Below are positions 44,794 through 62,744 of a DNA stretch of 64,000 nt, piece after piece; within the stretch, counting starts at the first letter, position 1; each line of letters starts with the position of its first letter. Source of the DNA: Formosa haliotis (GTDB lineage: Bacteria; Bacteroidota; Bacteroidia; Flavobacteriales; Flavobacteriaceae); assembly GCF_001685485.1 (NCBI RefSeq), contig NZ_BDEL01000001.1, positions 989,501-1,053,500 on the forward strand, written 5' to 3'. A program made the position numbers and the translations under genes. The notes beneath the pieces were generated by a model. It was not told the origin of the DNA and did no database searches. It saw nothing but the letters and a program-made list of their open reading frames with translations.

Positions 44794-45806
44794 GTAAGCA
44801 AAATAACACCTTAGATAAAATCCTTGATTATGAGTTAAGACCTTGGCTTGCTCAAAATAGTATGGATGATGTATTTGCTTCAAAATTTAGAGGTTTAAAA
44901 GAATACACACCTCAACAACCTTTACAGTTTGAAATCGAATTTTACAGACCATTTGACAATAAAACAAAATACTATTCAAGGCTTATTCTAAATACGGTTA
45001 AATCTGATTTTGATACTTTGTATCAAACCATTGATGAAGATAGAAACGAGAACCTAATCCGTTACTATCTTAATGACACACTCAATAAGCGATTAAAAAC
45101 ACGGTTGAAAGACCTTGGTAATCTTCTAAAGGAAAAGGATTTTGCACTTGCATACGCTAATCCTAAAAACACTTCTCACCAATTAGACTTGGCACATAAA
45201 GCCAACACCTATATAATGCAGCTACTCAAACTTGCTTATATGCAATTGTACTTGGAGGTTCAGGAGGCTTTCAAAGATTGGGTAGATGATGAATTTATTG
45301 TGGAGGACTTTTATACTCAACTATTAAACGAGCCAATTCCCGAAAAACTACCTATCAGAAAACTACAAGTTATTGAGGTTGCTCCAGAACCAGTCAATAA
45401 ACCTAAGTCAAAGAAAACATCAAAACCCATTCAGTTCCATTCATTCTTTTATAATGAGTATAATACCAATCCTGATAAGCTTGTAGATTTATGGGATAGT
45501 TTAAAGCTTAACAATTTTATTAGTGCTGATACTCCATTGGCAACTTTTAAAAAAGTATTCTCAGGAACTGAAATCAATACACCTGTTACTTGGACTGGAA
45601 ATATTAGCGAGCTTTTTTACTTCGTAAAACGCATTCACAAAGATTTAAAATTGGTATCTGACTTAAAACAAAAGCAATGGCAAGTTACCTGTATTTGCTT
45701 TGTAGATGAAAACGGAGAATCGTTTGACCGTTCAAAATTCAGGTCATTAAAACGCCCAAATCTTACAGGTGATAAAATAGATAATGCCGTAAACCTTTTA
45801 AAATAG
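44790..45806 (+). CDS. Element-borne protein of unknown function
   Basis: A 338-residue cytoplasmic protein that I do not recognise. The N-terminal 190 residues are helical and charged. A Pro/Lys linker (EPVNKPKSKKTSKPIQ) joins a C-terminal part of about 130 residues (FHSFFYNEYNTNPDKLVDLWDSL, TWTGNISELFYFVKRIHKD) with a look of RteC-like regulators of Bacteroidota conjugative elements. That resemblance is weak. It overlaps the integrase gene by 4 bases. Confidence 0.65.
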   Translation: MSKQNNTLDKILDYELRPWLAQNSMDDVFASKFRGLKEYTPQQPLQFEIEFYRPFDNKTKYYSRLILNTVKSDFDTLYQTIDEDRNENLIRYYLNDTLNKRLKTRLKDLGNLLKEKDFALAYANPKNTSHQLDLAHKANTYIMQLLKLAYMQLYLEVQEAFKDWVDDEFIVEDFYTQLLNEPIPEKLPIRKLQVIEVAPEPVNKPKSKKTSKPIQFHSFFYNEYNTNPDKLVDLWDSLKLNNFISADTPLATFKKVFSGTEINTPVTWTGNISELFYFVKRIHKDLKLVSDLKQKQWQVTCICFVDENGESFDRSKFRSLKRPNLTGDKIDNAVNLLK

Positions 45807-45853
45807 GTTACTCTGCACTTTACACTTCCTATTCTTTTTCAGTTTTTATTTAG

Positions 45854-45881
45854 CCCTTATTCTAATCCGATAAGGGTTTTT
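45854..45881 (+). terminator. Rho-independent terminator after the integrase operon
   Basis: A 7-bp stem (CCCTTAT at 45854-45860, ATAAGGG at 45870-45876) with a TTTTT run. Confidence 0.75.
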
Positions 45882-45991
45882 GCTTTTGTTTTCCCACTCT
45901 GCACTCTGCACTCTACACTGCACCTTGTTTCTGCACCCCATAACAGCCTTAAAGTCAATCTACTTTAGCACTGTATTCGGACTTCGAATAT

Positions 45992-46009
45992 GACTTTAGG
46001 CCTGAAGTC
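45992..46009. promoter_or_regulatory. Palindromic operator candidate before the HTH genes
   Basis: GACTTTAGGCCTGAAGTC is an 18-bp palindrome with one mismatched pair, 29 bases before the likely ATG of the first HTH gene. A second imperfect palindrome, ATTCGGACTTCGAAT, lies just upstream. Confidence 0.4.
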
Positions 46010-46037
46010 TTTTACAAATTTTCAAACCCATAATAAG

Positions 46038-46337
46038 ATGGAAGAGATTTTAAAAAGACTTGAAATTATCGAGAAACACGTATTAGACCAAAATCTAATA
46101 CTAAAGAATGTACTCAACTTCAATGAAGCTTGTCAGTACTTGGAATTATCGCAATCTCACTTGTATAAACTCACAAGTGCGGGAAGCATTCCACATTACA
46201 AACCCAACGGTAAGAAACTCTATTTCAACCGTGAGGAATTAGACCAATGGTTATTGCGTAACCGCAATGCCACTACTGATGAAGTCGAACAGCGAGCAGC
46301 TGATTATCTAATCAAAAAAGGGAGGGTAAAGCTATGA
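46038..46337 (+). CDS. Helix-turn-helix excisionase-family protein
   Basis: A 99-residue protein beginning MEEILKRLEIIEKH, with a coiled-coil start and then a MerR/excisionase winged helix: LNFNEACQYLELSQSHLYKLTSAGSIPHYKPNGKKLYFNREELDQWL. Such proteins bind DNA to help excision or regulate element genes. The frame opens at 45990, but the ATG at 46038 starts the conserved part. It overlaps the next HTH gene by 4 bases. Confidence 0.88.
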   Translation: MEEILKRLEIIEKHVLDQNLILKNVLNFNEACQYLELSQSHLYKLTSAGSIPHYKPNGKKLYFNREELDQWLLRNRNATTDEVEQRAADYLIKKGRVKL

Positions 46338-46630
46338 CTGAAATAATCGATTTATTGGTGGCACTCTCTCAGGAAGTTAGAGACCTAAGAACACGTATTG
46401 AATTGCTTAATGCAACAAAGGTTGAATACCTAAAAAATGCGTGGGTAGACAATCAGGATGTAATGCAGATGCTACACATTAGTCCACGCACTTTGCAAAC
46501 ATTCCGAACCAACGGCACAATTCCTTACAGTAAAATAAGCGGAAAGTTTTACTACAAGGTAGCTGATATTGAGGAGCTTTTACAGGCTAACTATTACAAT
46601 CCAAACTTCAAGTGTGATGGATGTAAATAG
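46334..46630 (+). CDS. Second helix-turn-helix excisionase-family protein
   Basis: A 98-residue partner of the previous gene with the same plan: an N-terminal helix (LLVALSQEVRDLRTRIELL) and a winged helix with VMQMLHISPRTLQTFRTNGTIPYSKISGKFYYKVADIEELL. Two such genes in a row are typical of Bacteroidota mobilisable elements, where one may act as Xis. Confidence 0.88.
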   Translation: MTEIIDLLVALSQEVRDLRTRIELLNATKVEYLKNAWVDNQDVMQMLHISPRTLQTFRTNGTIPYSKISGKFYYKVADIEELLQANYYNPNFKCDGCK

Positions 46631-47537
46631 GGAAGCCATATTAAGCAAAACACATTACGGCCTAAATATTTATGCCTATGTGTTAAGACAGTACTATCCG
46701 GGCGAAACAGTTCTTTCCCTTTCGGGAAGGGACTGTAACCCCACTAAAAACCCATTTAATGCAGGCAAGCCTACATTATGGGTTAAGGTAGTAGATAATT
46801 GTGCGGTGCATACCGATAGCGAAGAAGCTATTGCAGACGGCAATGTATTTGATTTTGCAGCACTTCATTTTAAGCTTTCTGGTCAGGAATTACTGGATAA
46901 GCTAAATGAAGAATTGCATTTGCGTATTGGTCAGAAAAACGGTTTTTACAATCAGGAGGAAGTAATATTTACAGAACCTGAACCCGAAATTATAAAACCA
47001 AAACCACCAGTATTCAGCTATTACAAAAAGCCTGTCACCAATGTAACACCTACAAAAGAGATAAGCTTGATAGAGGTTTACAACCTCATCCAAGGCAATG
47101 AATTTGCTACGTGTACAAGTACACTACGCAATATTCAAGATGTAAAGAAAGCCCGAAAATATAAGGCGTTTAATTTCGATTATGTCACCTTCTCAGGTGC
47201 ATTTTCAAAACGAAATGATAAACACCTCAAAAAGCATTCAGGACTTCTAACGATTGACTTTGACCATATCAGTAATATTTCCACACTAAGAGAAGAACTA
47301 CTCAAAGATGAATACTTTGAAACAGAACTTCTTTTTACATCGCCTTCGGGTGATGGTTTAAAATGGGTTATTCCTATTGAATTAACCAAAGTCAAACATC
47401 AAGATTATTTCAAGGCGGTTGCCAATTACATCCAGCACACATACAGCTTGGAAGTAGATGGTTCAGGTAAAGACATTTCAAGAGCCTGTTTTTTACCTCA
47501 CGACCCCAATGTATTTATCAATCCAAAATATTTATAG
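46617..47537 (+). CDS. VirE N-terminal (BT4734-like) domain protein, primase-associated
   Basis: A 307-residue protein of the element's replication module. The first 110 residues resemble the CHC2-like start of bacterial primases (YVLRQYYPGETVLSLSGRDCNPTKNPFN). Residues 150-300 match the BT4734-like/VirE-N domain (FNFDYVTFSGAFSKR, LLTIDFDHISN, LLFTSPSGDGLKWVIPIE). The ATG at 46617 was chosen over 46569 because the region before it is the tail of the HTH gene in another frame. It is followed directly by the DUF3987 gene. Confidence 0.82.
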   Translation: MDVNREAILSKTHYGLNIYAYVLRQYYPGETVLSLSGRDCNPTKNPFNAGKPTLWVKVVDNCAVHTDSEEAIADGNVFDFAALHFKLSGQELLDKLNEELHLRIGQKNGFYNQEEVIFTEPEPEIIKPKPPVFSYYKKPVTNVTPTKEISLIEVYNLIQGNEFATCTSTLRNIQDVKKARKYKAFNFDYVTFSGAFSKRNDKHLKKHSGLLTIDFDHISNISTLREELLKDEYFETELLFTSPSGDGLKWVIPIELTKVKHQDYFKAVANYIQHTYSLEVDGSGKDISRACFLPHDPNVFINPKYL

Positions 47538-49355
47538 ATGATGGAAAAGAAAACATTTAATCCGTTGGAATGGATGGATAATTCAAACCAACAACAGCAA
47601 CATACAGAACAGAACTACCAAACAGTTACAGACGATAATTCAGAAGTTGAAAAAGTCATTCAGAATATAGAAGCTAATCATATTGATATTGCTCCAAATT
47701 ACAACGATTGGATAAATATCGGTTTCGCTTTTGCTGATGAATTTGGAGAGTCTGGAAGAAGCCTATTCCATAGAGTAAGCCAATATTATTCAGGTTACAA
47801 CACTAAAGAATGTGATAAGCAATTTGATAATTGCCTAAAGTCAAAAGGTCAAGGTGTTTCATTGAAAACCTTTTTCTTTCTTGCCAAACAAGCAGGCGTT
47901 TCTATTTTAACACAATCCAATGAACAGTATAACGCTAAAAGTAGTAATCACAAATCAACAAAGGCTACACCAGTACAAGAATACCAGGAAGAAGAACCGA
48001 TTAAGGAAATAATGCCAACATTCCCTAAATCCTTATATCCTGAGCTTCCCGAATACTTACAACAAGTGGTTGATGTAGCTACATCAGATGAAGAAAGAGA
48101 TATTTTGCTCTTAGGGTCATTAGCGGCTATTAGTGCGTGTTTCCCAAAACTCTACGGTATTTATGACGGTAAGAAAGTATTCTGTAATCTATTTCTATTT
48201 ATTACGGCACAAGCATCCGCAGGAAAAGGACGTTTGGTGCATTGTCGTCAATTAGTAAATCCTATTCACAAGGAATTACGAGAAGAAGCCAAATTGCATA
48301 AGCAACATTTTGAGTTGGAAATGGCGGAGTACAACGCCAATAAAGGCAAAGTTGAAGGGGTTGAAAAACCAGCCAAACCACCTGAAAAAATGCTCTTTAT
48401 TCCTGCAAACAATAGTTCAACAGGTGCATACCAATTATTGGGTGATAGTGATGGTAAAGGGCTAATTTTTGAAACCGAAGGAGATACTTTGGCACACGCC
48501 TTTAAAAGTGATTACGGAAATTATAGTGATGGTTTCAGAAAAGCATTCCACCACGAAACCATTTCCTATTACCGTAGAACCGACCGTGAGTTTGTAGATA
48601 TTGAAAGTCCTTGTCTATCGACCGTCCTTTCAGGTACGCCAAAACAAGTTTCGGCTTTAATACCAAGTGCAGAAAACGGCTTATTCAGCCGCTTTATTTT
48701 CTACTTTATGAATGTAAAGCCTGTTTGGAAAAACGTATTTGCAAGCACTACTGATAACGGATTGGATGATTACTTTGAGAATTTAGGCAACCAGTTCTAC
48801 GAACTGTATAAGTTGCTCAAAACTAATGGCGATTTTCAGTTTTACTTAACCGCAGACCAACAAGAGCAATTCAATCAGTTTTTTAGCGAGATACAAGTAA
48901 AATACCTCAATCTTCAAGGGATGGACTATATGGCTACCATTAGAAGATTAGGGCTAATTGCATTCCGTTTCTGTATGCTCTTTTCAGCGTTAAGGATATT
49001 GGAAACAGGAGACACCTCTAATAAACTCATTTGTGAGGAAAGGGATTTTCAAACCGCATTGGCTATGATTAAAGTATTGGTAAAACATTCCAGTAAAGTA
49101 TTTGGTGAGCTTCCACAAGAAGAAGCCAAACCTACCCGAATGAACCGTAAAGAGAAATTCCTATACGCTTTACCACGAAACTTTAACCGTCAGAAGTATT
49201 TAGAAGTGGCTAAAAAACTAAACATTCCTGCAAAAACAGCCGAAGGCTATATCACTGGTTTTATAAAGTCCAACCTCATTCACCGTGAGCAACAGGACAC
49301 CTATACAAACCTCTCTATTGAGGAAATTAAGGATGTTGAGGAAATTAAGGATTAA
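47538..49355 (+). CDS. PriCT-2/DUF3987 domain protein (element primase-helicase)
   Basis: A 605-residue protein. Residues 40-110 are a PriCT-2-like domain (IAPNYNDWINIGFAFADEFGESGRSLFHRVS). Residues 165-520 are DUF3987, a helicase-like fold common beside VirE-N proteins in Bacteroidota elements (LLGSLAAISACFPKLYG, TAQASAGKGR with an atypical P-loop, FETEGDTLAHAFKSDYG). A C-terminal winged-helix-like part follows. With the previous gene it probably starts replication of the excised element. Confidence 0.85.
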   Translation: MMEKKTFNPLEWMDNSNQQQQHTEQNYQTVTDDNSEVEKVIQNIEANHIDIAPNYNDWINIGFAFADEFGESGRSLFHRVSQYYSGYNTKECDKQFDNCLKSKGQGVSLKTFFFLAKQAGVSILTQSNEQYNAKSSNHKSTKATPVQEYQEEEPIKEIMPTFPKSLYPELPEYLQQVVDVATSDEERDILLLGSLAAISACFPKLYGIYDGKKVFCNLFLFITAQASAGKGRLVHCRQLVNPIHKELREEAKLHKQHFELEMAEYNANKGKVEGVEKPAKPPEKMLFIPANNSSTGAYQLLGDSDGKGLIFETEGDTLAHAFKSDYGNYSDGFRKAFHHETISYYRRTDREFVDIESPCLSTVLSGTPKQVSALIPSAENGLFSRFIFYFMNVKPVWKNVFASTTDNGLDDYFENLGNQFYELYKLLKTNGDFQFYLTADQQEQFNQFFSEIQVKYLNLQGMDYMATIRRLGLIAFRFCMLFSALRILETGDTSNKLICEERDFQTALAMIKVLVKHSSKVFGELPQEEAKPTRMNRKEKFLYALPRNFNRQKYLEVAKKLNIPAKTAEGYITGFIKSNLIHREQQDTYTNLSIEEIKDVEEIKD

Positions 49356-49421
49356 TTATCCTTAGTTTCCCCGGTTTCCTCAACTTCCTGAAATGCTATT
49401 TTCATATTAAATTTATTTCAT

Positions 49422-49444
49422 TATATTTGTTTGACAAACTTGTC
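49422..49444 (+). promoter_or_regulatory. Promoter and operator of the R-M regulator gene
   Basis: TATATTTG at 49422-49429 matches the -7 consensus. GACAA-AC-TTGTC at 49433-49444 is a perfect 5-bp inverted repeat at the expected transcript start, 10 bases before the ATG. This suggests autorepression by the XRE protein encoded next. Confidence 0.5.
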
Positions 49445-49453
49445 CAAAATATT

Positions 49454-49756
49454 ATGTCAGACAATTGGAGTAAAAAATTAGGAGCAATTATTAAGGAGTA
49501 CAGGGAGGCTAATAATTTACCACTTAGAAAGATTGCGGCTAACTTAGATTTAGACCAGTCCACCCTTAGTAAGATTGAGAAAGGAGACCGTAAAGGCAAT
49601 ATCGAAATGATACCTACCGTAGCTAATCTGTTTAATTTGGATTACGAAGGCTTACAGGTCGATATTTTGAGTGATAAATTAATCGAAGAGAATCAGGAAT
49701 ACCCGCTCTTCAAAGAGGCTTTGGAAGAAGCACTTAACAAGTTAAACCGTAAATAA
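49454..49756 (+). CDS. XRE-family regulator of the type I R-M system (controller-like)
   Basis: A 100-residue protein with a Cro/CI HTH: LGAIIKEYREANNLPLRKIAANLDLDQSTLSKIEKGDRKG. A short acidic C-terminal helix follows. It lies 4 bases ahead of hsdM and so is cotranscribed. The layout is that of controller proteins that time restriction after entry into a new host. The frame opens at 49427, but the ATG at 49454 starts the HTH protein. Confidence 0.87.
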   Translation: MSDNWSKKLGAIIKEYREANNLPLRKIAANLDLDQSTLSKIEKGDRKGNIEMIPTVANLFNLDYEGLQVDILSDKLIEENQEYPLFKEALEEALNKLNRK

Positions 49757-49760
49757 TTAA

Positions 49761-51958
49761 ATGATAACAAAACAGCAATTAGGTAATTTTTTATGGGGAA
49801 TGGCAGACATTCTCTATGGTAAAGTAGAAGATTACAAATCATATATTCTAACCTTATTATTCTACAAACGTCTTTCCGATAACTATCCGTGGGAAGAAAA
49901 ACAAAAGGTTCAGGAGCTCGAATCGGAATATGGTACAGAGCTTAATGCAAAACAAAAAGAAAAGGCATTAAAAAATGCCCATTTATTTTATATCCCTGAA
50001 GGTCACTTTTGGAAAGATGTAGCAGATGCTCCTTTAGATGATAAAAACGAAAAACTGGATAATGCGGTTAAAGCCATTGCAGATGCCAACCCTAAACTAA
50101 AAGGAATTATCAATACCGTAAATTGGAATGCAGCAGCTCCCGATGGTTCTGGTGGAAAAAGATTAGATCCTAAAATTTTACAGGAATTAATCAACCATTT
50201 AGACCCTATGGATCTTTCTAATGCCAATGTGCCTTTAGATATTTTAGGTCATGCCTACGAATATCTTATCAAGCGTTTTGCCGATGAAAACAAAGGCGGT
50301 ACAGTAGCGGGGCAATTTTATACCCCACCAGAAGTGGTAGAATTAATGGTGCGTTACATTTCTCCTAATAATGGGATGCGTGTATATGACCCAACCTGCG
50401 GTTCGGGAGGTTTCTTAATCAAAGCTGCCGATTACGTTAGGGAAAGTCAAGGCGAATTAAAAGGCTTACGCCTGTATGGTCAGGAAACCATTTGGAACAC
50501 CTGGGCAATTGCTACCATGAACTTACTTTTACACGGTTTAGAGGGCGAAATCCGTCAGGGTGATACCATCCAAAACCCTAAGTTTAAAAAGAATGACAGC
50601 GAAATTGAAACCTTCGATGTTGTTTTGGCTAATTTCCCATTCTCTGTAGAAAACTGGGCAGGTAATGGTACGCCTAAAAAAGATAAAAAGGAAAGGCTGT
50701 TTTAAATAAAGATGGGTCTCCTAAATACGATTACCCGTCTAAAGACACCTATGCAGACCCTTACAATCGTTTATTGTTTGGTACACCAAACTTTACCAAT
50801 GGCGATTTCGCTTTCCTACAACACATCATTGCTTCTTTAGAGCCTGATGGTATGGCAGGCGTGGTTTGTCCTAATGGTGTATTATTTAAAGGACAACCTG
50901 AAAAAACTGAAGAAGAAGATGGTCAAAACCGTAAGGCAGATGACGACTACCTAATCCGTAGAGGTTTTATTGAAGGTATAGGAGAGGAAAACAAAAACAT
51001 CATCGATGCTATTGTAGCCTTACCTGAAAATGTATTCTATGGCAATACTATTCCAGGGGCGATTATCTTTTTTAACAAAAACAAGCCTGTAGAGCGTAAA
51101 GACAAAATCCTTATGGTTTGGGGTGCTAAAGAAGGTTGGTACAAATCAGAGCCCGACCAGAACGTGCTACGTCCGCAAGACGTCATGCGTCTTTTGGTAC
51201 AGTTACTTAGTTATGGTGATATAGAACGTGCCAAGGCTATTATCCCTTCTCAAGAGCAGCGTTTATTCGCTTTGGTAGATGATAATCTTGATTTCAAACT
51301 TTTAGAAATCAACGAAAAGTACATCGATGAGGAAACCGAATTGTCAGGTCTGGAATCTGAACTTTTACAAACCAAAAGCTATCTGGAAGCTAACAATGCC
51401 AACGTAGAACTTACCTTAAAAGACGGTACGATACTAAATGCCAACATTCACAAAGGGAAGTTGGAGCTAAGTTTAAAAGACCAACGCAAAACAAGTATTC
51501 CGGTAAACGAAAAAGGCGAAATAGAAATTCTGTTTGGTGCAGAGCAAATTATTAAAACCAAACTTAAAGCGGGGAACAAAGCTGCTTTTACTAAAGCCAA
51601 TATTACCAAGATAGAAAACCGTATAGAAAAGCTTCAAGGTATCATTGACCAAAAAGACAATGACATTGCCGAAGCTAAAGCAGATGCAGAACGCGAAAAA
51701 GTAGCCATACAGGTGGTGAGCCAGGAAATGTTAGGGGTATTTGCCGACCCTGTACTGCGCAGAAAATACTTTGCTTTGGTAGATATGGAAGAGTTAATTG
51801 AAAACGAGTTCAACCTAAACCTACCGCGATATATCGATACCGTAGAGCCTGAACCTGAAATTCCTATTGCCGAAGCCAAAAAAGAGCTTAATACGGCTTT
51901 AGATGCCGAAAAGCAAGCAGAAGCTGAATTAAACCAATTACTTGAAATCTTGAATTAA
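49761..51958 (+). pseudogene. hsdM: Type I restriction-modification methyltransferase HsdM, split by a 1-nt frameshift
   Basis: The 5' frame (49761-50705) encodes the helical N-domain (GNFLWGMADILYGKVEDYKSY), GQFYTPPEVVELMVRYI, the SAM motif DPTCGSGGFLIKAA and the catalytic-site motif as LANFPFS (usually NPPF). It stops after KKDKKERLF. The continuation in the +1-shifted frame runs from about 50690 (VLNKDGSPKYDYPSKDTY) through FGTPNFTNGDFAFLQHI to 51958 with a long coiled-coil tail. One missing G in AAAAAGGAAAGG would restore KKGKAVLNKDG. Either a true mutation or a sequencing error; the rest is intact. Confidence 0.85.
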
Positions 51959-51963: not shown

Positions 51964-53244
51964 ATGGAAATAAAAATAACCAAATACGGAGATTTTCCAT
52001 TGGACTGGAATGAATTTCGTTTGAAGGATATTGGAAATATTATAACAGGAAAAACTCCTCCAACGGATAATGAAAAGAATTTTGGAAGTGATTATATGTT
52101 TGTAACTCCAGAAGATTTAGATCAAGGAAAGTACATTCTAAAAACTTCAAGAGGTTTATCAAAGCAAGGTTCTGCTCACTCAAATACTATTAAAGAAAAT
52201 TCAATATGTGTAGCGTGTATTGGATATATTGGCAAAATTGGAATTGTAAAAGAAAAGTCTTTTACTAATCAGCAAATTAATAGCATTGAAGTATTTGATG
52301 ATTTTGATTTAGATTATGTTTATTATTTAGTGGAGTATAGCGCAAAAAGAATTGAATCTATTGCAGGAATTACGGCTGTACCTCAAATAAATAAGTCAAC
52401 ATTTGGTAAGTTTAAATTTTGTTTGCCCTCGCCAACAGAACAAACCCAAATTGCTAATGCGCTTTCCACAGTAGACAAAACCATACAAGCCACCAAAAAC
52501 AGCATTGCCAAATTAGAGAAGTTAAAAACCTCACTAATGCAAAACCTGCTTACCGGTAAAATGAAACCCGATGGTTCTTGGCGTACAGAAGATGAGTTTT
52601 ACCTCGATGAAAAGTTTGGGAAAGTGCCTAAGGGATGGATAGTATCAAATATAGGTTCATTTGGTCAAGTAAAAACTGGTAAAACACCTCCCACGGTAGA
52701 TGAAAAAAATTTTTCAATTAGTAAAGATATTCCATTTGTTACTCCTGGGGATGTTGATAATTCTGTTTACATATTAGATACTGAAAGGTATGTTACTAAG
52801 CAAGGTCTTAAATTTTCCAATTCAATTCCCAAAGATTCAGTTTGCTTCATTTCAATTGGTTCAACCATTGGAAAAATAGCTATTACAACAGAATTGTGTT
52901 GTAGTAATCAACAAATCAATTCAATAATACCAGACAAAGACAATTATTTTTTATTCGTTTATTATCAAACTATGTTTAATAGTCCTAGAATTAAATCAAT
53001 TGCAGGAGTAACAGCTACGCCTCAAATTAATAAGTCTGATTTATCAAAATTTAAACTAATCAAGCCAAATAGTTTTAATGAACAAAAATTAATCGGGGAA
53101 AATTTAATTACAATAGATGATTGTATTGTTAAAAAACAAGTATCAATTAAACATTTTGAATCTTTGAAAAAGTCACTTATGCAAAACCTACTGACTGGTA
53201 AAGTAAGAATCCATCCTCAAGAAAAAATTAAAGGATTAGATTAA
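51964..53244 (+). CDS. hsdS: Type I restriction-modification specificity subunit HsdS
   Basis: Sets the DNA target of the type I system. The 426 residues hold two target-recognition domains (about 10-160 and 225-390), each followed by a helical spacer ending in SLMQNLLTGK (near 195 and 412). The two recognition domains are clearly alike (GKTPPTDNEKNF and GKTPPTVDEKNF; AGITAVPQINKS and AGVTATPQINKS), so the two half-sites read are probably similar. It starts 5 bases after hsdM. Confidence 0.93.
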   Translation: MEIKITKYGDFPLDWNEFRLKDIGNIITGKTPPTDNEKNFGSDYMFVTPEDLDQGKYILKTSRGLSKQGSAHSNTIKENSICVACIGYIGKIGIVKEKSFTNQQINSIEVFDDFDLDYVYYLVEYSAKRIESIAGITAVPQINKSTFGKFKFCLPSPTEQTQIANALSTVDKTIQATKNSIAKLEKLKTSLMQNLLTGKMKPDGSWRTEDEFYLDEKFGKVPKGWIVSNIGSFGQVKTGKTPPTVDEKNFSISKDIPFVTPGDVDNSVYILDTERYVTKQGLKFSNSIPKDSVCFISIGSTIGKIAITTELCCSNQQINSIIPDKDNYFLFVYYQTMFNSPRIKSIAGVTATPQINKSDLSKFKLIKPNSFNEQKLIGENLITIDDCIVKKQVSIKHFESLKKSLMQNLLTGKVRIHPQEKIKGLD

Positions 53245-53250: not shown

Positions 53251-53379
53251 ATGGCTAATAAGAATTAAAACAATTTAGGACATGAGCAGAACCTGCAACT
53301 TACGAAAGAACAAATCAATAATGAGCATAACCAAAAGTTTTGGGTATTCTGGTTTTATGCATTTTTTTATGGCATTTAA
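53251..53379 (+). pseudogene. Degraded short ORF after hsdS
   Basis: ATG at 53251 gives MANKN and then an in-frame TAA at 53266. The same frame continues NNLGHEQNLQLTKEQINNEH and ends with an aromatic, hydrophobic tail (FWVFWFYAFFYGI) at 53379. A CAA-to-TAA change would explain the stop. It may be a chance frame. Confidence 0.25.
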
Positions 53380-53468
53380 AAACGTATTAAATGTTCATTT
53401 TCAGGAAGTTATAAATGTTGTTTATATCTTAAAATTGTTAATAAGTAACGGTAATTTGTTAAAAAACT

Positions 53469-53499
53469 TTGTATTGTGGTTTAAATGTTTGTACATTTG
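53469..53499 (+). promoter_or_regulatory. Strong Bacteroidota-type promoter of the ncRNA upstream of the Abi gene
   Basis: A TTG at 53469-53471 is followed after 20 bases by TACATTTG at 53492-53499, an exact -33/-7 pair of the Bacteroidota TTG/TAnnTTTG class. It predicts a transcript start near 53505, at the first predicted RNA stem. Confidence 0.75.
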
Positions 53500-53504
53500 C
53501 AGTA

Positions 53505-53629
53505 ACAGTACCCATTCTGCTTCCCGTAAGAACAGCAAGTGGGTCTTCTTTTTTTTAGGGCAATCCCTAACATACAGTACACCTCCTTCGCTTGGCTACC
53601 AGGCACGTTCGGGAGGTTTTTTCTTTTTT
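53505..53629 (+). ncRNA. Structured noncoding RNA upstream of the AbiF-like gene
   Basis: Between a good promoter and the Abi start codon are three stems. Stem 1 pairs ACCCA (53510-53514) and TGCT (53518-53521) with AGCA (53534-53537) and TGGGT (53540-53544). Stem 2 is TTAGGG-CAAT-CCCTAA at 53555-53570. Stem 3 pairs ACCTCC (53581-53586) with GGAGGT (53612-53617) and holds an inner GCTTGG-CTA-CCAGGC hairpin at 53590-53604. It ends in a T-rich run, so it also terminates. This matches the known pairing of AbiF/Abi_2 proteins with an upstream RNA. Confidence 0.65.
53581..53629 (+). terminator. Terminator forming the 3' end of the ncRNA
   Basis: The outer stem ACCTCC/GGAGGT with an inner hairpin is followed by TTTTTTCTTTTTT. 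It lies 39 bases before the Abi ATG, so most transcripts from the ncRNA promoter should stop before the protein gene. Confidence 0.75.
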
Positions 53630-53667
53630 ACTAAGCCGTATGCATTAATCCCTAACACTGCGTATTA

Positions 53668-54561
53668 ATGGCAAAACCGGCTAAAACCATACAAGAGCAA
53701 ATACAACTCCTCCAAGACAGAGGAATGCTGTTTCATAACGTGGCAGATGCCCCTCACTTTTTAGGTAATATAAGCTATTACCGCCTTAAAGGCTATTGGT
53801 GGGAAATGCAGTCCGATAAGGTCAATCATAAGTTCCATCCCAACAATTATTTCGAAGATATTATAGACCTCTATAATTTCGATAGGCACTTCCGTCTTAT
53901 TGTGTTCAATGCCATAGAGCGTATAGAAATAGCCTTACGTACAAAGCTAATCTACCATATGTCTTTAGCCTATGGTCCGCATTGGCATAATGAAACCCAA
54001 TATTTTGAGAAGTATAAAAATCATTTAGGGTTTAAGAGTAAATTAACCAGAGACCTTGCTAATAGCAGTGAAGAGTTCATTATTAAGCATTACGACAATC
54101 ACGTTACAGAAAATCCAGAATCTTGGAAGGCTTTAGAAATTCTAACTTTAGGTTCACTTTCTAAACTATATCAGAACTTAAATCACCAACTACCCGAAAA
54201 GGCTAAAATCGCTACAGAATTTGGTCTAAATAATCAAAAGTATTTAGCCAGTTGGTTGTTAAGTACTACGTATATAAGAAACATAATTGCGCATCACGGT
54301 CGATTATGGAATCGGGTAATCATCAATAAATACGATTGGCCTAAAAGTACTAAAGATCCGCTTTTAAGCTATACACCTAACCAATACCAAAGAAGAAAAA
54401 TATTTCCACTGGTATCAGCTATTCTATATATGAATAACAGAATTAGTCCAGGGCATCATATAAAAGATGAGCTGTTAGACTTGTTTCAACAATTCCCTAA
54501 CACACCTTTGTATAAAATGGGCTTCCCTAAAAATTGGCAAAACGAACCACTATGGAAATAA
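53668..54561 (+). CDS. Abi family (Abi_2/AbiD/AbiF-like) HEPN abortive-infection protein
   Basis: A 297-residue protein of the Abi_2 family. The N-terminus has the family text TIQEQIQLLQDRGMLF and ISYYRLKGYWWEMQ. FDRHFRLIVFNAIERIEIALRTKLIYHMS follows near residue 73. The HEPN ribonuclease motif R-x4-H is present as RNIIAHHGRLWNR near residue 211. Such proteins cut RNA after phage infection and stop growth. The gene sits between hsdS and hsdR and follows a structured RNA, an arrangement reported for AbiF toxin-antitoxin-like systems. Confidence 0.9.
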   Translation: MAKPAKTIQEQIQLLQDRGMLFHNVADAPHFLGNISYYRLKGYWWEMQSDKVNHKFHPNNYFEDIIDLYNFDRHFRLIVFNAIERIEIALRTKLIYHMSLAYGPHWHNETQYFEKYKNHLGFKSKLTRDLANSSEEFIIKHYDNHVTENPESWKALEILTLGSLSKLYQNLNHQLPEKAKIATEFGLNNQKYLASWLLSTTYIRNIIAHHGRLWNRVIINKYDWPKSTKDPLLSYTPNQYQRRKIFPLVSAILYMNNRISPGHHIKDELLDLFQQFPNTPLYKMGFPKNWQNEPLWK

Positions 54562-54595
54562 TAAGAACAATTAATAAACGAATACTATAAAGAAT

Positions 54596-57500
54596 ATGGC
54601 AGGCTTTTCAGAAATACCAGCAGTTGAGGTCCCAATGTCTAAATGGATAAGCGATTTAGGTTGGACATATAGAGACAACGATTTTTTAAAACGTTACAAA
54701 CGTCCTTTGGCAAACCCCATTATCGATGAGATTTTAATTGATAAGATTGCCCAGATCAACAGCATTTCTAAAGCAGATGCTGCAAGAGTATTGCCTATTC
54801 TTACGCAACATTTCAACAATCCCAATGCCTTAGAAGCTAACGAGCTGTTTTTAGAACGTCTGGTAAAAGGGGTAAATGTTAGAATTGGAGAAGAAGATAA
54901 AACCATTCGTATTATCGATTTTAAAAAGCCCTGGAACAACGATTTTATAGTAACACGCCAATATTGGGTACAAGGGTTTGAGCTGGTTAAACCCGATATC
55001 GCTTTATTGATAAATGGTATTCCTATCATTTGCGTAGAAGCCAAACAAAGAGCCAAATCCAATTCTAATTATTTTAAAGGTATTCAAGATTTAAGCCTGT
55101 ACGAAAGTAAAGTGCCTAAACTCTTTATTTCAAACTTTTTTGGTATTGCTGCCAATGGGAAGTTCTCTAAATATGGAGTATTGGGAGCTTCGGCATCCTA
55201 CTTTTTTGAATGGAAAGATTTAAGTGTAGAATCACCTGAAAATAACCCGGCCATAAAAAATAAGGTCATTACAACGGTACAGAATGCCGATACGGGTTTG
55301 TTGGATATGGACATTCCTGCTTACGAGCAAATGAGACGTTCGGTATGCAGCTTATTACAACCTGAACGTATTTTGGATATGCTTCAAAACTTTATGGTAT
55401 TTGAGCGTTCTCCAGAATCAGGCTTAGTTAAAAAAATAGCACGTTACCAACAGTACAGAGCAGCAAATAAAATTGTACGTAGAGCTGAAAAAGGAGATTT
55501 TAAACAAGGTGTGATTTGGCATACACAAGGTTCTGGTAAATCATTAACCATTCTCTTTACATCCTATAAATTACGCCACCATAAAAACTTAGGAGATCCG
55601 GTTGTTTACATCATTGTAGATAGAAAAGACCTTAGGGAGCAAATTGGTGACACTTTCGAAGAATCCGACTTTCCAAATACCTTTAAGCCCATAAATGCAG
55701 GGCAATTAAAACATAAAATAAAGTCTCAGACCAGTGAAGTAATTATCACTAACATCCAAAAGTTCCGCGAACTGGATGGCGTTACTGACCCACGTGAAAA
55801 TGTATTTGTCCTAATTGACGAAGCACACCGTACACAATATGGTGATTTTCATTCCGAGCTTAAGGCAGCGCTTCCTAATGCAGGTCGCTACGCGTTTACA
55901 GGAACACCAATTCCAAAAACGATAAAGGAATTTGGTAAAATAAGTACTACCGAAGTAGAAAAATATTTAGACCGATATAGCATTCAAGATGCTATTGATG
56001 ATGGAGCGACAAGAGAAATCATTTACACCTATGGTCCTACAGAATTACAAGTAGATAAAGACACTCTGAAAAAAGGTTGGGATGAACTCACAGAAAGCTT
56101 AGAAGATGATGAGAAGCAAGAGGTACAACGCAGAGTAAGACCTTGGAAAACAATTATAAAGAAACCCGAACGTATAGCTGAAATAGCCAAAGATATTACC
56201 AAAGATTTCAGAGAAAAGGTTGAGCCTAATGGGTTTAAAGCTCAGTTGGTTGGTATAGATAAAGAGGCTTGTGTTTTGTACTACAACGAACTGCTAAAGA
56301 ATGGTTTCGACCCTTCTGAAGTTCAAGTTGTGTTTTCAAAAACTGCGAAGGAAAGTGAAGAGCGGTATAAACTTTTTAAAGACCACTATTTAAATGAAGG
56401 TGAATTAAAAAAGGTAATTAAGAAATTTAAAAAGCGTATAACTCCTGAAGAATTGCGCAATGGAAATAATCTTAAAATTTTAATTGTTTGCAATATGCTT
56501 CTTACGGGCTTCGATGCTCCTATTGAGCAGACAATGTATTTAGATAGTCCTTTAAAGGAACACACCTTATTACAGGCCATCGCACGTACTAATAGACCCT
56601 ATGACGATAAAGTTTCTGGAGTAAGTAAAAATAATGGACGCATTGTAGATTATATTGGTATAGACCTCAATAAAGCTTTGAGTTACGACCCTACAGATGT
56701 TGGAACTTTTAAAGATGAAGAAGCTCTATTCAAAGATTTTCCTAAAGCTATTGATAAAGCAATGGGACACTTCGATGATATAACGCTTCAGGATACCTAT
56801 GAGTGTTCCATAGCAATTGTTAGAAGGTTATCTGAAATAGACCATACCGAGTTTGAAAAAGAATTTAGAGCAGTTTATCAATTATATGAAGCCATTTCAC
56901 CAAGTGCGTTATTAGTGCCTTATCGAGATCAATACAGGTGGTTGATTGCTATATATCAAGTTTACTTATCAGAATACAAACGTTTAGATTTTGATGCAGA
57001 GTTTTATGCAGCTAAAACAAGACAGTTAGTAAATGAAGCCACTGAAATTTTAGGCTTTAAAGGTCACTTGCCAGAAGTTAAGATTGACAGCAGCTACATT
57101 GATGTACTGAATGGCTCTAAACTTAATCCAGATGATAAGGCTGAGAAAATTATACGTGATATCGAAACGGTAATCCGTCAAAGTGAAGTAGCAAACCCTA
57201 TTTATGTAGACTTCCTTAAACGTTTAGAAGAGATCATTAAACAAAAACAAAACAAGTCTAAAAAGATAGAGGATACTCTTAAAGATTTAGAAAAACTCTT
57301 TACTGAAGTAGAAGAAACCGAAAGCTTACCTGAAAAGATGGGCTTTACAGATATGGGTGAGTTCTATTTCTATCAGGAAATGAAAAACAAGTTTGGTGAA
57401 AGTCTCGAAGAAGAAACTGCAAAAGCATTAGCGATGAAACTTGGTAATATAATTAGAGAAAAACGCTATGTAGGTTGGGCTGATAGCGAGAGAGAAAAGA

Positions 57501-57625
57501 AGTCGATCAAGAATCATATTGAATTTTGGCTTTGTTCAGATGAATTTGAATCATTAGAACTATGTGATGACGATGCCTTGGTAGAGCAATTTTTAGAACA
57601 TATGGTAAACCAGTATAAATTATAA
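54596..57625 (+). CDS. hsdR: Type I restriction endonuclease subunit HsdR
   Basis: The motor and nuclease subunit of the type I system. Of 1009 residues, the N-terminal PD-(D/E)xK nuclease shows as KPDIALLINGIPIICVEAKQR near residue 142. The SF2 translocase has Walker A HTQGSGKSLTILFTSYKL, DEAH in VLIDEAHRTQYG, TGTPIPKT and the late QAIARTNRPYD motif. The helical C-terminal region is intact. Its stop overlaps the metallopeptidase ATG by one base. Confidence 0.95.
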   Translation: MAGFSEIPAVEVPMSKWISDLGWTYRDNDFLKRYKRPLANPIIDEILIDKIAQINSISKADAARVLPILTQHFNNPNALEANELFLERLVKGVNVRIGEEDKTIRIIDFKKPWNNDFIVTRQYWVQGFELVKPDIALLINGIPIICVEAKQRAKSNSNYFKGIQDLSLYESKVPKLFISNFFGIAANGKFSKYGVLGASASYFFEWKDLSVESPENNPAIKNKVITTVQNADTGLLDMDIPAYEQMRRSVCSLLQPERILDMLQNFMVFERSPESGLVKKIARYQQYRAANKIVRRAEKGDFKQGVIWHTQGSGKSLTILFTSYKLRHHKNLGDPVVYIIVDRKDLREQIGDTFEESDFPNTFKPINAGQLKHKIKSQTSEVIITNIQKFRELDGVTDPRENVFVLIDEAHRTQYGDFHSELKAALPNAGRYAFTGTPIPKTIKEFGKISTTEVEKYLDRYSIQDAIDDGATREIIYTYGPTELQVDKDTLKKGWDELTESLEDDEKQEVQRRVRPWKTIIKKPERIAEIAKDITKDFREKVEPNGFKAQLVGIDKEACVLYYNELLKNGFDPSEVQVVFSKTAKESEERYKLFKDHYLNEGELKKVIKKFKKRITPEELRNGNNLKILIVCNMLLTGFDAPIEQTMYLDSPLKEHTLLQAIARTNRPYDDKVSGVSKNNGRIVDYIGIDLNKALSYDPTDVGTFKDEEALFKDFPKAIDKAMGHFDDITLQDTYECSIAIVRRLSEIDHTEFEKEFRAVYQLYEAISPSALLVPYRDQYRWLIAIYQVYLSEYKRLDFDAEFYAAKTRQLVNEATEILGFKGHLPEVKIDSSYIDVLNGSKLNPDDKAEKIIRDIETVIRQSEVANPIYVDFLKRLEEIIKQKQNKSKKIEDTLKDLEKLFTEVEETESLPEKMGFTDMGEFYFYQEMKNKFGESLEEETAKALAMKLGNIIREKRYVGWADSEREKKSIKNHIEFWLCSDEFESLELCDDDALVEQFLEHMVNQYKL

Positions 57626-58269: not shown

Positions 58270-60369
58270 ATGCAAAATCACTGTTTCAACATCCTAACCT
58301 TTAACCATCCGCAGGAAGAACTAACACTCTACTTTACTAACGTAGAAGATGAATCTCTTACAAGAGTAAATTATAGGATTGTACCTGATGAGGTTATTGA
58401 GGAGTTTGGGGAACAGGAGCATTATTACACATCATTCACAAAAGAAGTAGAAGGTTTTTATCTAGTAACCAAAGCGGTAAATCCACGCTATGAGATTAAA
58501 GAAGATGAAAACGGAGGAGAACGTTCATACTTTATACATAATTCGGCTTTATCGGTTTCCATATTAAAACGATATTACAATTACTTAATACACGAATATT
58601 TCAAAGCTCAGGGCTTTTTGGTCAAACCTAATTTTATCAGCGATACAGAAATTTGGCTACCAAGTAAAAAATCAGATAGAACAGGTCAATTTAATTTATT
58701 CGACCGCTATTCACTAAAAGTACAATTCAAGACAGTAACCAAACAACTGGAGTTACTCGTAACCTATGAAGGTATTTCCAAAGTCTATAAACAATCAGTA
58801 GAAGTATTACAAGAGTCCGTTTCACCAACAGCGTTTAATTGGGTAATCTTTGATAATGGTCTGTATCGGTTTGATGAATTGCCAAATACAGGTAAAAGAG
58901 CTTACGACCAAGTGTTTCCTGTATGGAACTTCAATACGCGTGATGCTTTAGGAGAAACTACAGAAGCACCCGATAAATCCAACAAATACAAAAAGTTCAA
59001 AGATGCTATCGACTTATTTTATAATACCTATCTAAATACCGAAGATTTTAAAAAACTTATCCCTATCAATTCCAATGGTTTTATACCAGTAGAGGAAATC
59101 AAAATGGGGAGAGTTAAAAGCAATAGCAATCAATTATTGTTTGGAGAAGGTAATACCGACATTGTTCCAATGAACGGTATGAAAAATCACGGCCCTTTTG
59201 ATTTTAGCGATACTTCCAATATTCATTTCTTTTTCATTTTTCATAAAGATGATTATCAAGTGGCTAAGAAAATGGACGGCTTCTTTAAAGGTACGGAAAG
59301 AGGATTTGGTGGCTTATCAAAATTCATTCATACGCCTTATCATACTGAAAAAGGCTTTAGTATAATGTTTGAGGATAAAGAAAATCCTTGGTCTGAAATC
59401 TACCATAAGGTAACAGAAAAGTACTTTGAACCCGATATTCAATACATAGCCATTTACATCAGTCCGTTTTCTAAAAACTCACCTGATAAGTCCAGGAGAA
59501 AGATTTATTACAGACTTAAAGAGTTGCTACTTAAAAAAGGAATTTCCTCTCAGGTGATAGATGCTGAAAAAGTAATGACCAACGACAAATATTACTTTAG
59601 CTTACCCAACATTGCTATAGCCATATTAGCCAAATTAAACGGTATTCCTTGGCGTTTGGATAACACGATAAAGAAAGAATTGGTTATTGGTGTAGGGGCG
59701 TTTAAAAACCCTGATTTCGATATTAAATACATAGGAAGTGCATTCAGTTTTTCTAACAACGGAAGATTTAACCGTTTTGAATGTTTCCAACAAGACCAAA
59801 CAAAAGAATTGGCGGGTTCTATCATAAGAGCCGTTAAAGAATATGCAGCACTAAATCCTGAAATAAAACGCTTGGTAATTCATTTCTACAAGACAATGGG
59901 TAGAGCAGAATTAGAACCAATTGAAAATGGTTTGAAACGTTTAGGATTAAGCATTCCGGTATTCATTGTATCTATCAACAAAACAGAAACTTCTGATATT
60001 GTTGCGTTCGATTTAAACTGGAAGGACTTAATGCCATTAAGCGGAACATACATCAATATCGGTTACAACAAGTTTCTATTGTTCAACAACACAAGGTACA
60101 GCAATAACGGTTTCAATTTTCACGATGGCTACCCATTCCCGATAAAACTAAAAATCTACTGCACTCAAAAAGAATTGGTTGATGATTTTAAAACAGTAAG
60201 AGAACTCATAGACCAAGTATATCAATTTAGTAGAATGTATTGGAAATCGGTACGCCAACAGAATTTACCAGTTACCATTAAATACCCTGAAATGGTTGCA
60301 GAAATGCTTCCACACTTTGACGGTAACGAAATACCCGAATTTGGAAAAGATAACCTTTGGTTTTTGTAA
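58270..60369 (+). CDS. Long prokaryotic Argonaute with inactive PIWI domain
   Basis: A 699-residue protein. Residues 1-290 are N-terminal and linker regions. A MID domain lies near 385-470, with YYRLKELLLKKGISSQVI and later K434, resembling the Y-K-Q-K 5'-phosphate pocket. IAILAKLNGIPWRL joins it to PIWI, residues 470-699, ending KYPEMVAEMLPHF. The first catalytic Asp expected in VIGID is Gly476 (VIGVG), and the Asp of the 'RDG' motif is replaced in VIHFYK. It should therefore bind guide and target but not slice. It lies 57 bases after the peptidase gene and 9 bases before the helicase gene. Confidence 0.87.
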   Translation: MQNHCFNILTFNHPQEELTLYFTNVEDESLTRVNYRIVPDEVIEEFGEQEHYYTSFTKEVEGFYLVTKAVNPRYEIKEDENGGERSYFIHNSALSVSILKRYYNYLIHEYFKAQGFLVKPNFISDTEIWLPSKKSDRTGQFNLFDRYSLKVQFKTVTKQLELLVTYEGISKVYKQSVEVLQESVSPTAFNWVIFDNGLYRFDELPNTGKRAYDQVFPVWNFNTRDALGETTEAPDKSNKYKKFKDAIDLFYNTYLNTEDFKKLIPINSNGFIPVEEIKMGRVKSNSNQLLFGEGNTDIVPMNGMKNHGPFDFSDTSNIHFFFIFHKDDYQVAKKMDGFFKGTERGFGGLSKFIHTPYHTEKGFSIMFEDKENPWSEIYHKVTEKYFEPDIQYIAIYISPFSKNSPDKSRRKIYYRLKELLLKKGISSQVIDAEKVMTNDKYYFSLPNIAIAILAKLNGIPWRLDNTIKKELVIGVGAFKNPDFDIKYIGSAFSFSNNGRFNRFECFQQDQTKELAGSIIRAVKEYAALNPEIKRLVIHFYKTMGRAELEPIENGLKRLGLSIPVFIVSINKTETSDIVAFDLNWKDLMPLSGTYINIGYNKFLLFNNTRYSNNGFNFHDGYPFPIKLKIYCTQKELVDDFKTVRELIDQVYQFSRMYWKSVRQQNLPVTIKYPEMVAEMLPHFDGNEIPEFGKDNLWFL

Positions 60370-60378: not shown

Positions 60379-62744
60379 ATGGATTTAAAAGTATATAAAA
60401 TTAACGGAACTAATAATCACCTTGATTATGATAAACTGATAAATAGTTTAGAAACTAAATTAGAGCCTACTTGTCATCAAGCAGAACTTATTGTTTTAAA
60501 CAGATTTCCAGTTGCAGTTACGGCACAAACATCATTAGATTTTATCATTCTTATTAAAATTCCAGATATTCATAATAACTACTATCGCATAAAAGGAGAT
60601 GATGGTTGGTTATACTTGAAAAATCAAATAATAGCCGTTTCAGTAATTGATGAGTTTGAAAATAGGGAAATAGATTATCAAGGGAATACTATAGAAATTG
60701 AAAACCAATTCTTTTCATTTCAAGAGGATGCCTCAAAGATTAAATGGGGTCTTACAAATTACTTAGCTGATAAGTGTGGCTTAGAAAGAAACTATATTAC
60801 AATACATCCATTAATATGGATAAAGAATAAAAATTCGATTGTTATTGACAATGATGTTTATGTAGGAAAAGAACTAACCTACGACTCAATTGAAGCTGTA
60901 ATCAGTAAGAACTACTATTATAAATGGCCAGGATATAGAAATTGGCAAAGCAATGATTATCTTTTTGAATACCATATTAAGCAAATATTTGAGCAAGCTT
61001 CAAAAGACAGTAAGGAAGGTTTTATTACTAAAAAGAAAATTGACAGAATACAACGTAAGTTTGGAGTCAAACAGGATGAATCCAACAGTATTATTGGTAT
61101 TAAATTAGTTGAGGTAAAAGGAAAAGCAGGAACAGGAAAAACATCTGAGTTATTAAAATGGATGCTAAAAAATAGCCTCAAAGGCAGAAAAGGAGTATTT
61201 CTTACTTACAACCATTTATTAGTTTTTGATATAACAAGTCAAGTCAAAAGTTTTAGTAATCGCCAGAGTGATGATGTAAAAAAGGCATCAACGACAACAT
61301 ATACAATTCACGGTTATTTCTATAATGTTGCTAAAAAATTAGGAGTTCTTTTGCTAATGACAGAAGCTCGTATTAAAGAACTCACCGCAATATTAGATAA
61401 TAGATGGATTGAAATAGAATCGTTTTTTAATAGAGAAAGAAAACCAACTGACACAAGTTTATCTTGGCTAAAGATGCGTGTTCAAAATAATTGGCAGGTA
61501 AACCAAGGCATTAAGAGAGAAGCAATACTCTTTATACAATATATTGAAAAACTTAGGTATTTACCCAATCAACAAGAAACAGCAAGATTGTTTAAACAAT
61601 TTAGGGATGACAAAATTGACAAATTAGCTAATCTTGAAAGTTCAAATATATTTCTAAAAGATTATGCCGAAGTGTTAAAACGTATACGTCAAGCCACTTC
61701 AGATTTAGATGGGTTTTTAAAAGATTTGGATGTTGAAAGCAAGTATGATTTACTTCATATTACATTGGATTTAAATCCTAAAATTCTGGATAAAGATAGA
61801 AGTGGTAAAATAGATTTCGAAAAGTTAAAGACACGCTATAAAAAAAGTATTAGTGGTTTTAGAGCAGGAAGAATTGCATATATTGATGAGGCACAAGATT
61901 GTCATCCTTATGAACGTGATATATTTTTCAATTTGTTTGGCAGTAATAATTGTGTAATTGCTAATGGTGATAAAGAACAATTAATTAGATATTCAGAACT
62001 TTGCGATTGGCATATTTCTCAAGGTAAAAAAATTGATTATCACATCTATCCAAAACCGAGTAAGTCCTATCGTATGAAGCCTGCCATTGCAGCATTAGCA
62101 AATCATATTGCAGAATGGTATAATATAGATTTAAACATAGAGCCTTTAGAGACGGAAGACCACGGCCATATTTATATATCAAATACTAATAATGTTGATG
62201 AACAAGTTACTGCATTAGACGAACTGCATAAGATTGGGGAAAGACAAGGTTGTACTTCTTATGAATCACTTTTATTATTAAAGCCAGCTGACACAAGTAC
62301 AAATAGTAATACAGGAAATGAAGAAATCAGCTTAACATCTTCTGTCAGAGTTAATGAGTATAATAATATTGTTAACGACTCTACGAATAAAAGAGTGAAT
62401 TGGTCATTAGTATCAAAGGCCAAAGAGAAATTACCTGAAATTTATTTTTGGAACTCAACAGGAAATGTAGATAAACGTGAACTACCAGTTCCAGGTTCTT
62501 TATCAGTTCGTTCAATTTATTATGCATCTTGTAGAGGAATTGAAGCTTGGTCTGTTATGTGTTTTGGTTTAGATACTTTTTTGAAAATAAAGCCAATGAA
62601 GATGAAGCAGATAATTATTTATTAAATGATTTATTCGACCAAATAACACCTGAACAACGTAGAGAAAAATATGCAGCAACTTGGGTATTGATGGCAATAA
62701 CAAGATGTATGGAGAATTGTTACATACAATTATTAAATCCTCAA
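60379..62744 (+). pseudogene. Argonaute-associated SF1 helicase gene with frameshift and IS-truncated end
   Basis: The 5' frame (60379-62625) encodes an N-terminal region of about 200 residues that could be a degenerate NERD-like nuclease domain. An SF1 helicase follows: VKGKAGTGKTSELLKWML near 247, TTYTIHGYFYN, AYIDEAQDCHPYERD near 500 and late VRSIYYASCRGIEAWSVM. In a T6 run at 62577-62582 the frame is lost. One more T restores FFENKANEDEADNYLLNDLF and the motif VI-like MAITRCMENCYIQL. The true 3' end is then cut near 62744 by the IS3 element. It is probably the second gene of the Argonaute operon. Confidence 0.8.

Follow-up and report, generated by a model that had tools for sequence, protein, structure and literature searches.

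The window analysed here is a stretch of 64,000 nucleotides from Formosa haliotis, in which a type I restriction-modification (R-M) operon and its followers run in one direction. The order is hsdM (in two frames), hsdS, a gap of 423 bases, a gene for an Abi_2 protein, hsdR, a YgjP-like peptidase gene, a Piwi/pAgo gene and a helicase-like gene. The features of the module between hsdS and hsdR are listed in Table 1. It can be observed that hsdM is split over two frames, 49761-50705 and 50774-51958, with an A-rich stretch near 50676-50706. A sequencing error, phase variation and a broken gene are indistinguishable as the origin of this break, and the R-M partner may be inactive.

Table 1. Features in and around the AbiF module, in coordinates of the window.
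Feature	Position	Strand	Basis or remark
hsdS, upstream neighbour of the module	51964..53244	+	gene calls and domain/PADLOC matches
Bacteroidota-type promoter of the RNA (putative)	53468..53499	+	TTTG 53468-53471, spacer 20 nt, TACATTTG 53492-53499; -7 element conserved in relatives
Element A, candidate cognate AbiF RNA hairpin	53503..53548	+	46 nt; covariance model R1, 69.5 bits, E 1.5e-16 (window is one of 17 model rows)
U8 tract, likely 3' end of the short RNA	53549..53556	+	sequence, directly after element A
Small middle stem-loop UAGGG-CAAU-CCCUA	53556..53569	+	folding
Element B, second abiF/RF03085-type hairpin	53576..53619	+	stem retained without the conserved CUCUC loop letters; U-rich tract 53617-53629
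abiF, Abi_2/AbiD-F HEPN ribonuclease, 297 aa	53668..54561	+	PF07751, PADLOC, PDB 8vz6, AlphaFold2/Foldseek
HEPN catalytic motif R204-N-I-I-A-H209	54277..54294	+	alignment A4; aligns with PbAbiF R210/H215
hsdR, downstream neighbour, 34 nt past the abiF stop	54596..57625	+	gene calls and domain/PADLOC matches

The protein encoded between hsdS and hsdR is AbiF, as judged from its Abi_2 domain, its intact RNxxxH motif and a predicted fold similar to that of PbAbiF. The Abi_2 family PF07751 matched with E 2.4e-52 (178.3 bits against a cut-off of 25.6) and the PADLOC AbiD model with E 1.8e-69, while the nearest solved structure was PbAbiF with its ncRNA (PDB 8vz6, E 6.2e-40). The AlphaFold2 model reached a mean pLDDT of 95.2 and was aligned by Foldseek to the same structure with E 3.1e-19 and a TM score of 0.91. 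The double mutant R210A+H215A of PbAbiF is described as inactive in a passage of PMC12373285, and the residues R204, N205, A208 and H209 of the window protein were invariant in the 27-row alignment. The Abi_2 protein with an RNIIAHH HEPN motif that had been read from the DNA is thus confirmed. Abi_2 was the only domain found at E<=0.001, and an ABC-ATPase domain was absent at that threshold.

Upstream of abiF lies the pattern TTTG-N20-TACATTTG, which we take to be a promoter of Bacteroidota type. As a bare pattern it occurs at chance level, with 2 matches in the window against 3.42 expected, and a sigma-70 scan of the window was uninformative. The spacing to element A is the more telling property, since the -7 element TANNTTTG, present in about 0.4% of random 13-nt slots, precedes 42 of 56 unique A elements at a distance of 3-4 nt. 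These 56 were the R1 matches with E<0.01, in a list typed by hand from which duplicates were removed and weaker matches and the loci L031, L182 and L190 were omitted. The TTG-N20 promoter pattern of the original prediction is present, and the position of its -7 element relative to the RNA is conserved. A promoter-driven RNA of about 50-55 nt that starts at element A is well supported by these sequence comparisons.

An RNA of about 125 bases with three stems had been proposed as one unit, of which only the first stem, element A with its own U8, proved to be a conserved unit, the third stem being separate. The middle stem was not seen in the nearest relatives inspected by eye. Element A consists of an outer stem of 7 bp, a 2x1 internal loop, an inner stem of 3 bp and the 12-nt loop UCCCGUAAGAAC. 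The region folded better than shuffled sequences, with z -2.42 for 53498-53632 and z -2.49 for 53502-53556. A T-rich tract follows A in most of the relatives printed and is shorter in a bulged form of A (UUUUGCUUU); a simple terminator scan, whose rule admits only loops of 3-8, called neither hairpin.

The sequence upstream of close Abi homologues was compared and found to share element A, rather than being unrelated, in the form AAC-N-GUAC ... GC(U/A)UCCCRUNAGA(A/U)C(A/U)GC ... GGGUCUU. The covariation that was sought in homologues is also present. In alignment A2 (17 sequences, 16 of them distinct), whose rows were collected through protein homology together with a pattern that fixed the inner GC...GC letters, the 10-pair hairpin was paired in 99.4% of cells, against at most 44.4% when the partner was slid by 1-3 columns. 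Double changes were observed in 4 pairs, including GCU/AGC to GCA/UGC in the inner stem; of 500 shuffles, 26 had at least as many such pairs, and none attained the paired percentage or the covariation score. A second form of A, with an inner stem of 5 bp and a 3' bulge, precedes AbiFs of other clades and was paired in 96.7% of cells with 6 double-change pairs over 23 distinct rows (A8), a figure biased toward structure because the rows were found with the structure model R1. Among the RNAs of AbiFs that are about 40-90% identical, the loop UCCCRUNAGA and the adjoining AACNGUAC are for the most part retained. Two further arrangements were seen among the relatives, a second and identical element A about 170 nt 3' of abiF (L006:3478-3523) and a second, shorter Abi_2 gene after the A-abiF unit on a Chryseobacterium plasmid (L216:8338-9018).

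Whether a short protein in the open reading frame 53282-53668 could be the cause of this conservation, instead of the RNA, was also considered. The frame is open in the window and runs open from A to abiF in 4 of 11 relatives; same-frame stops in the other 7 relatives read and the compensatory stem changes make this candidate hardly credible, and it was rejected. Across 68 sources, model R1 matched 36 times at E<1e-3, and 19 of these matches were not among its own rows. Searched over 395 Bacteroidota genomes, it matched 11, and in 8 of these the match adjoins an AbiF match. Of the other three, the one in G364 adjoins a truncated abiF start, the one in G375 lies at the end of a contig, and the one in G149 is in a genome without an AbiF match. 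The F. haliotis genome holds one A (R1 E<=0.001) and one AbiF. The eight genomes with an R1 match of E<=0.001 next to AbiF are only a part of the 48 among 395 with an AbiF match, a figure to be read with the stricter filters applied, the many genomes that have weaker, diverged RNA types and the AbiF matches that are fragments.

The third stem, element B, is of a different type. The AbiF RNA covariance model had been expected to recognise this RNA, yet RF03085 matches neither element A nor element B of the window, and the Rfam type corresponds to hairpin B as seen in relatives. No match to RF03085 was obtained in the window even at E 10, nor in the 138-base RNA stretch, nor in the whole F. haliotis genome at E<=10; element A was likewise unmatched in the 10 A-bearing relatives scanned. 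The likeness to RF03085 lies in a short hairpin 5' of abiF with a core resembling GC-YUCYC...GA...GC, and the gathering score of 37 bits was passed by element B of L007 (38.6 bits) and by the RNA of L026 (46.5 bits). A well-kept hairpin B of the form ACACC...UGCCUCUC...GAUGCACAC...GGU stands at the matching site in L001, L002, L003, L007, L009 and L010, and window B lies inside the DNA block common to L001 and L002. Model R2, built without the window, scored window B at 15.7 bits (E 0.00065 in 456 bases) and the reverse strand of the same palindrome at 9.1 bits. It did not find B in the close relatives L004, L005, L011 and L012. The 9-row B alignment was paired in 91.9% of cells with 6 double-change pairs. 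The number of further pair types was no better than for shuffled alignments, 179 of 500 of which reached it, and 59.2% of cells remained paired after a slide of +2. The list of B elements consisted of strong R2 matches, L148 (E 0.021) and the window, with L157 (E 0.025) and weaker matches omitted. Over the 395 genomes R2 found only G149 and G463, so that B is too rare there for statistics, and plasmid blastn with the RNA stretch returned one record. B-type RNAs without an A match (E<0.01) precede AbiFs of other clades, including L101, L088, L099, L169, L158, L230-L233 and others. Window B is probably what remains of another abiF-type RNA, with a role as an extra terminator at most; the simplest history would be that one AbiF replaced another in the same slot and the RNA was left behind.

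The relation between RNA and protein was analysed on a tree of 55 AbiFs, a quick tree with a long-branch warning in the B rows, for which rows and hsdR labels were chosen by hand and L008 was entered as A. Separation of A (with or without B) from B-only loci requires 2 changes on this tree, against a mean of 12.6 for shuffled labels. RNA type thus tracks AbiF clade, which marks A as the cognate RNA here and B as a foreign type, and the match argues for a cognate pair of A and AbiF. Homologues, covariation, conservation of the promoter and agreement of RNA and protein clades all agree with the original prediction of an AbiF with its own promoter-driven upstream RNA between hsdS and hsdR. Its further statement that the RNA is an independent transcript and not a leader is too strict, as RCd22 and abiF of Clostridioides difficile are described as sharing one promoter through terminator readthrough (PMC12373285).

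Seen together with what is described for relatives, the module is quite probably a type III-like toxin-antitoxin pair of AbiF and RNA, a compact cassette placed in a type I R-M operon within a mobile defence island. RNA A would be produced in surplus, as a short RNA that stops at the U-tract, and would bind the AbiF dimer and block its RNase site, while some polymerase would read past the terminator into abiF and hsdR. If the RNA supply dropped, for example when a phage halts host transcription, free AbiF would cut RNA and arrest growth, so that AbiF would serve as a backup to restriction. By analogy with studied relatives, toxicity of the protein, antitoxin action of the RNA and defence against phage are ascribed to the window module, and the loss of RNA supply as the trigger during infection is what we infer. 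For C. difficile, the sections on this pair describe that RCd22 is transcribed from one promoter, mostly terminates ahead of abiF, and acts in trans by binding and neutralising AbiF, abiF itself arising from readthrough of the RNA's terminator (PMC12373285). AbiFr is described as bound by PbAbiF, which it restrains (PMC12737573).

The hairpins might instead serve mainly as a terminator or attenuator leader that keeps abiF-hsdR expression low, the RNA having no role as antitoxin. Such a leader would agree with the U-tracts that end both A and B, with the RNA promoter being the only TTTG-N18-21-TANNTTTG match in the abiF-hsdR region, and with the stop of most C. difficile transcription ahead of abiF. 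It is considered unlikely, as the conservation of the UCCCRUNAGA loop and AACNGUAC goes beyond the needs of a terminator, the type of RNA tracks the clade of AbiF, L006 has an A copy downstream of abiF, and the C. difficile RNA works in trans.

The distribution of A and B relative to hsdR gives a further view of element B. Among 50 A-bearing AbiF loci (viral contigs excluded; two L013 genes and the fragments L019, L022 and L023 included; L229 counted as lacking hsdR downstream, its hsdR being upstream), hsdR lies directly downstream in 18 and not in 32. It follows in 8 of 8 loci with tandem A+B 5' of abiF, against 10 of 42 with A only (Fisher p 8.2e-5), and in 6 of 6 against 12 of 44 when the weak B of the window and L148 are set aside (Fisher p 0.0012). 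Both p values overstate the association, as the loci are related and uncorrected for kinship and 7 of the 8 R2 rows come from hsdR-linked loci. The order is A-abiF-B-hsdR in L008 and B-abiF-hsdR in L233, where a B-only AbiF occupies the same slot. In G149 (L191/L236), A and B are followed by hsdR; this genome gave no abiF match (E<=0.001), and, from an open reading frame reading, a HigBA-like gene pair lies upstream. A tentative reading that fits the tandem loci with hsdR as well as L008, G149 and L233 is that element B is under selection, either as an antitoxin against AbiFs of competing clades (RNA anti-addiction) or as a control hairpin of hsdR. The latter version is weakened by the TACTTTTG element between B and hsdR in G149.

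A role of B as an additional antitoxin of this AbiF, comparable to the two motifs of RCd22 that are described as serving one AbiF (PMC12373285), is also doubtful. The 8 tandem A+B loci, B being weak in the window and L148, and the paired B stems with double changes in the 9-row alignment speak for it. Against it, B is the sole RNA type before AbiFs of other clades, L004, L005, L011 and L012 are without a B match, and B of the window has lost its loop letters.

The slot between hsdS and hsdR recurs among relatives. For the other full-length AbiFs retrieved that have at least 59% identity (L001-L013 and L216), hsdR is directly downstream in 11 of 14, and hsdS is upstream in 9 of those 11; none was found for L002, and the L007 contig begins too close. 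Over the aligned segments, HsdR and HsdM of the window share only 24-36% identity with those of these relatives. Several HsdR groups occur with AbiF in this slot, namely that of the window, that of L001/L011/L012, that of L002, that of L004/L005/L008, and that of L003/L007/L009/L010 with L143/L148/L220/L222/L224. The window and L001 share 89% identity in AbiF and 26% in HsdR. The reverse is seen for L220 and L222, with 91% in HsdR and 37% in AbiF and hsdR DNA in common from the end of abiF onward, and for L009 and L148, with 86% in HsdR and 43% in AbiF. At the DNA level, the stretch common to the window and L001 extends over 53489-54537 and resumes only in the pAgo gene, that common to the window and L002 extends over 53436-54567, and neither comparison gave a DNA match in hsdM, hsdS or hsdR (E 1e-4).

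The hsdR-linked state requires 9 changes on the tree of 55 AbiFs, and AU tests rejected strict co-inheritance modestly (p-AU 0.044 and 0.033). On the unrooted AbiF tree, 2 changes suffice to explain the hsdR group, a result nearly compatible with one group. The AbiF and HsdR groups agree in part, and some co-inheritance is likely. Judged from these alignments, promoter, RNA and abiF behave as one exchangeable cassette of about 1.05 kb in the hsdS-hsdR slot, and the module both travels with hsd families and moves between them.

This behaviour bears on a PrrC-like guard arrangement, an idea already in print for PrrC (PMC3874165, PMC12707154), in which the R-M complex would restrain AbiF until a phage blocks restriction and the RNA would only tune expression. 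The gene prrC, too, is described as lying inside a type Ic hsd operon (PMC3874165), and the relevant part of Anantharaman 2013 (PMC3710099) lists Abi2/AbiF/AbiD in R-M operons and proposes such a guard logic for R-M-linked HEPN proteins; hsdR directly downstream in the 18 of 50 A-bearing loci would also suit a guard. It is nevertheless improbable here, as the other 32 keep the same RNA without hsdR directly downstream, the occurrence of one AbiF clade with unrelated HsdR families disfavours a specific protein contact, and AbiF is without an ABC-ATPase domain. The toxin-antitoxin pair with RNA A remains our preferred reading of the module.

The surroundings contain further elements. Before the R-M operon, at 43699-49756, lie a tyrosine integrase gene, BT4734-like/PriCT-2/DUF3987 primase-like genes and an HTH gene. 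In L218, inspected by eye, a DUF3987-like gene and an HTH gene are followed by an Eco57I-type R-M gene and A-abiF-pAgo; the window and L218 are perhaps the same type of element with different defence cargo. The window pAgo at 58270-60369 (PADLOC PDLC02385, E 3e-288) carries IGVGA, similar to the IGTGA of AfPiwi (1w9h). Active Piwi domains presumably carry Asp at this position, and by this motif the window pAgo is probably catalytically inactive. In L144, L218, L219 and L226 a pAgo gene lies 21-23 nt past abiF with no hsdR between, a possible AbiF-pAgo operon, and in L218 the next gene product is 244 aa long, carries the HEPN-like motif RNLVVHH and matched no Pfam family. As regards AbiF as a pAgo effector, most AbiF loci surveyed are without pAgo, and pAgo also has other neighbours. 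At 60379-63963 a UvrD/GajB-like helicase gene is followed by a minus-strand transposase pair, which we take to be of IS3 type, and the defence island may be cut at this pair. Elsewhere in the window, a cobalamin riboswitch (21772-21960, minus strand, 110.6 bits) and a SAM-I/IV riboswitch (35895-35987, minus strand, 54 bits) were found.

Among known systems, the type III label calls for comparison with classical ToxIN, in which the antitoxin RNA is a tandem repeat array. The module departs from this, with one A match in the whole genome (E<=0.001) and a B of another type. The gene prrC is reportedly located between hsdS and hsdR, as abiF is here. PrrC of EcoprrI (type Ic) shares with the window a HEPN ribonuclease gene inside an hsd operon, in the sections of PMC3874165 and PMC3710099 on it; it differs in its ABC-ATPase part and its silencing by the R-M complex, whereas the window AbiF has its own RNA. 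With AbiF/RCd22 of C. difficile phi027, as far as described in the parts of Saunier et al. 2025 (PMC12373285) that deal with it, the module shares an Abi_2 HEPN protein, RNxxxH, two tandem hairpin motifs, a promoter-driven upstream RNA (about 100-130 nt in RCd22) and a terminator before abiF. RCd22 differs in its SigA promoter, in two motifs both described as of RF03085 type while A is not, and in lying within the lysis module of a prophage, where the window has a type I R-M operon; the phiC2 AbiF homologue is only about 32% identical to window AbiF. PbAbiF/AbiFr (PDB 8vz6; Zilberzwige-Tal et al. 2025, as summarised in PMC12373285 and PMC12737573) shares the fold, the catalytic R and H and an origin in Bacteroidota (Prevotellaceae); it differs at 29% identity in the structural alignment, and its nearest loci (L174, L157, L175) gave weak B-type RNA matches of 18-22 bits and no R1 match. 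An arrangement hsdS-abi-hsdR was described in 2011 for locus IV of Histophilus somni, with HsdR, an Abi family protein, a specificity subunit, Fic and an M subunit (PMC3339403). That locus belongs to a Pasteurellaceae species, the passage on it mentions no RNA, and the likeness is one of listed gene order.

Embedding of Abi2/AbiF/AbiD in R-M operons has been in print since 2013 (PMC3710099). The toxin-antitoxin pairing of AbiF with RNA and the placement of AbiF itself in R-M operons are already known, and the exchangeable cassette in the hsdS-hsdR slot is the less expected part. Among the papers listed by the literature searches, none dealt with an AbiF RNA in an hsd operon or with the exchange of such modules, and element A is possibly already contained in the 2025 Cell or 2017 NAR papers. 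Loci with two RNA types before one AbiF make it possible to test directly which toxin each RNA restrains, and slot exchange is a tangible example of toxin-antitoxin units inserted into very different restriction operons. Cas13 has been proposed to descend from AbiF, and the crRNA from the RNA partner of AbiF. Cas13 and Cas13an differ from the window protein, since Cas13 has two HEPN domains and the AbiF studied here is a single HEPN protein with one Abi_2 domain in 297 aa and one fixed RNA, for which no guide function is indicated. A strongly conserved, covarying Bacteroidota RNA type unmatched by Rfam provides many natural AbiF/RNA pairs for comparison.
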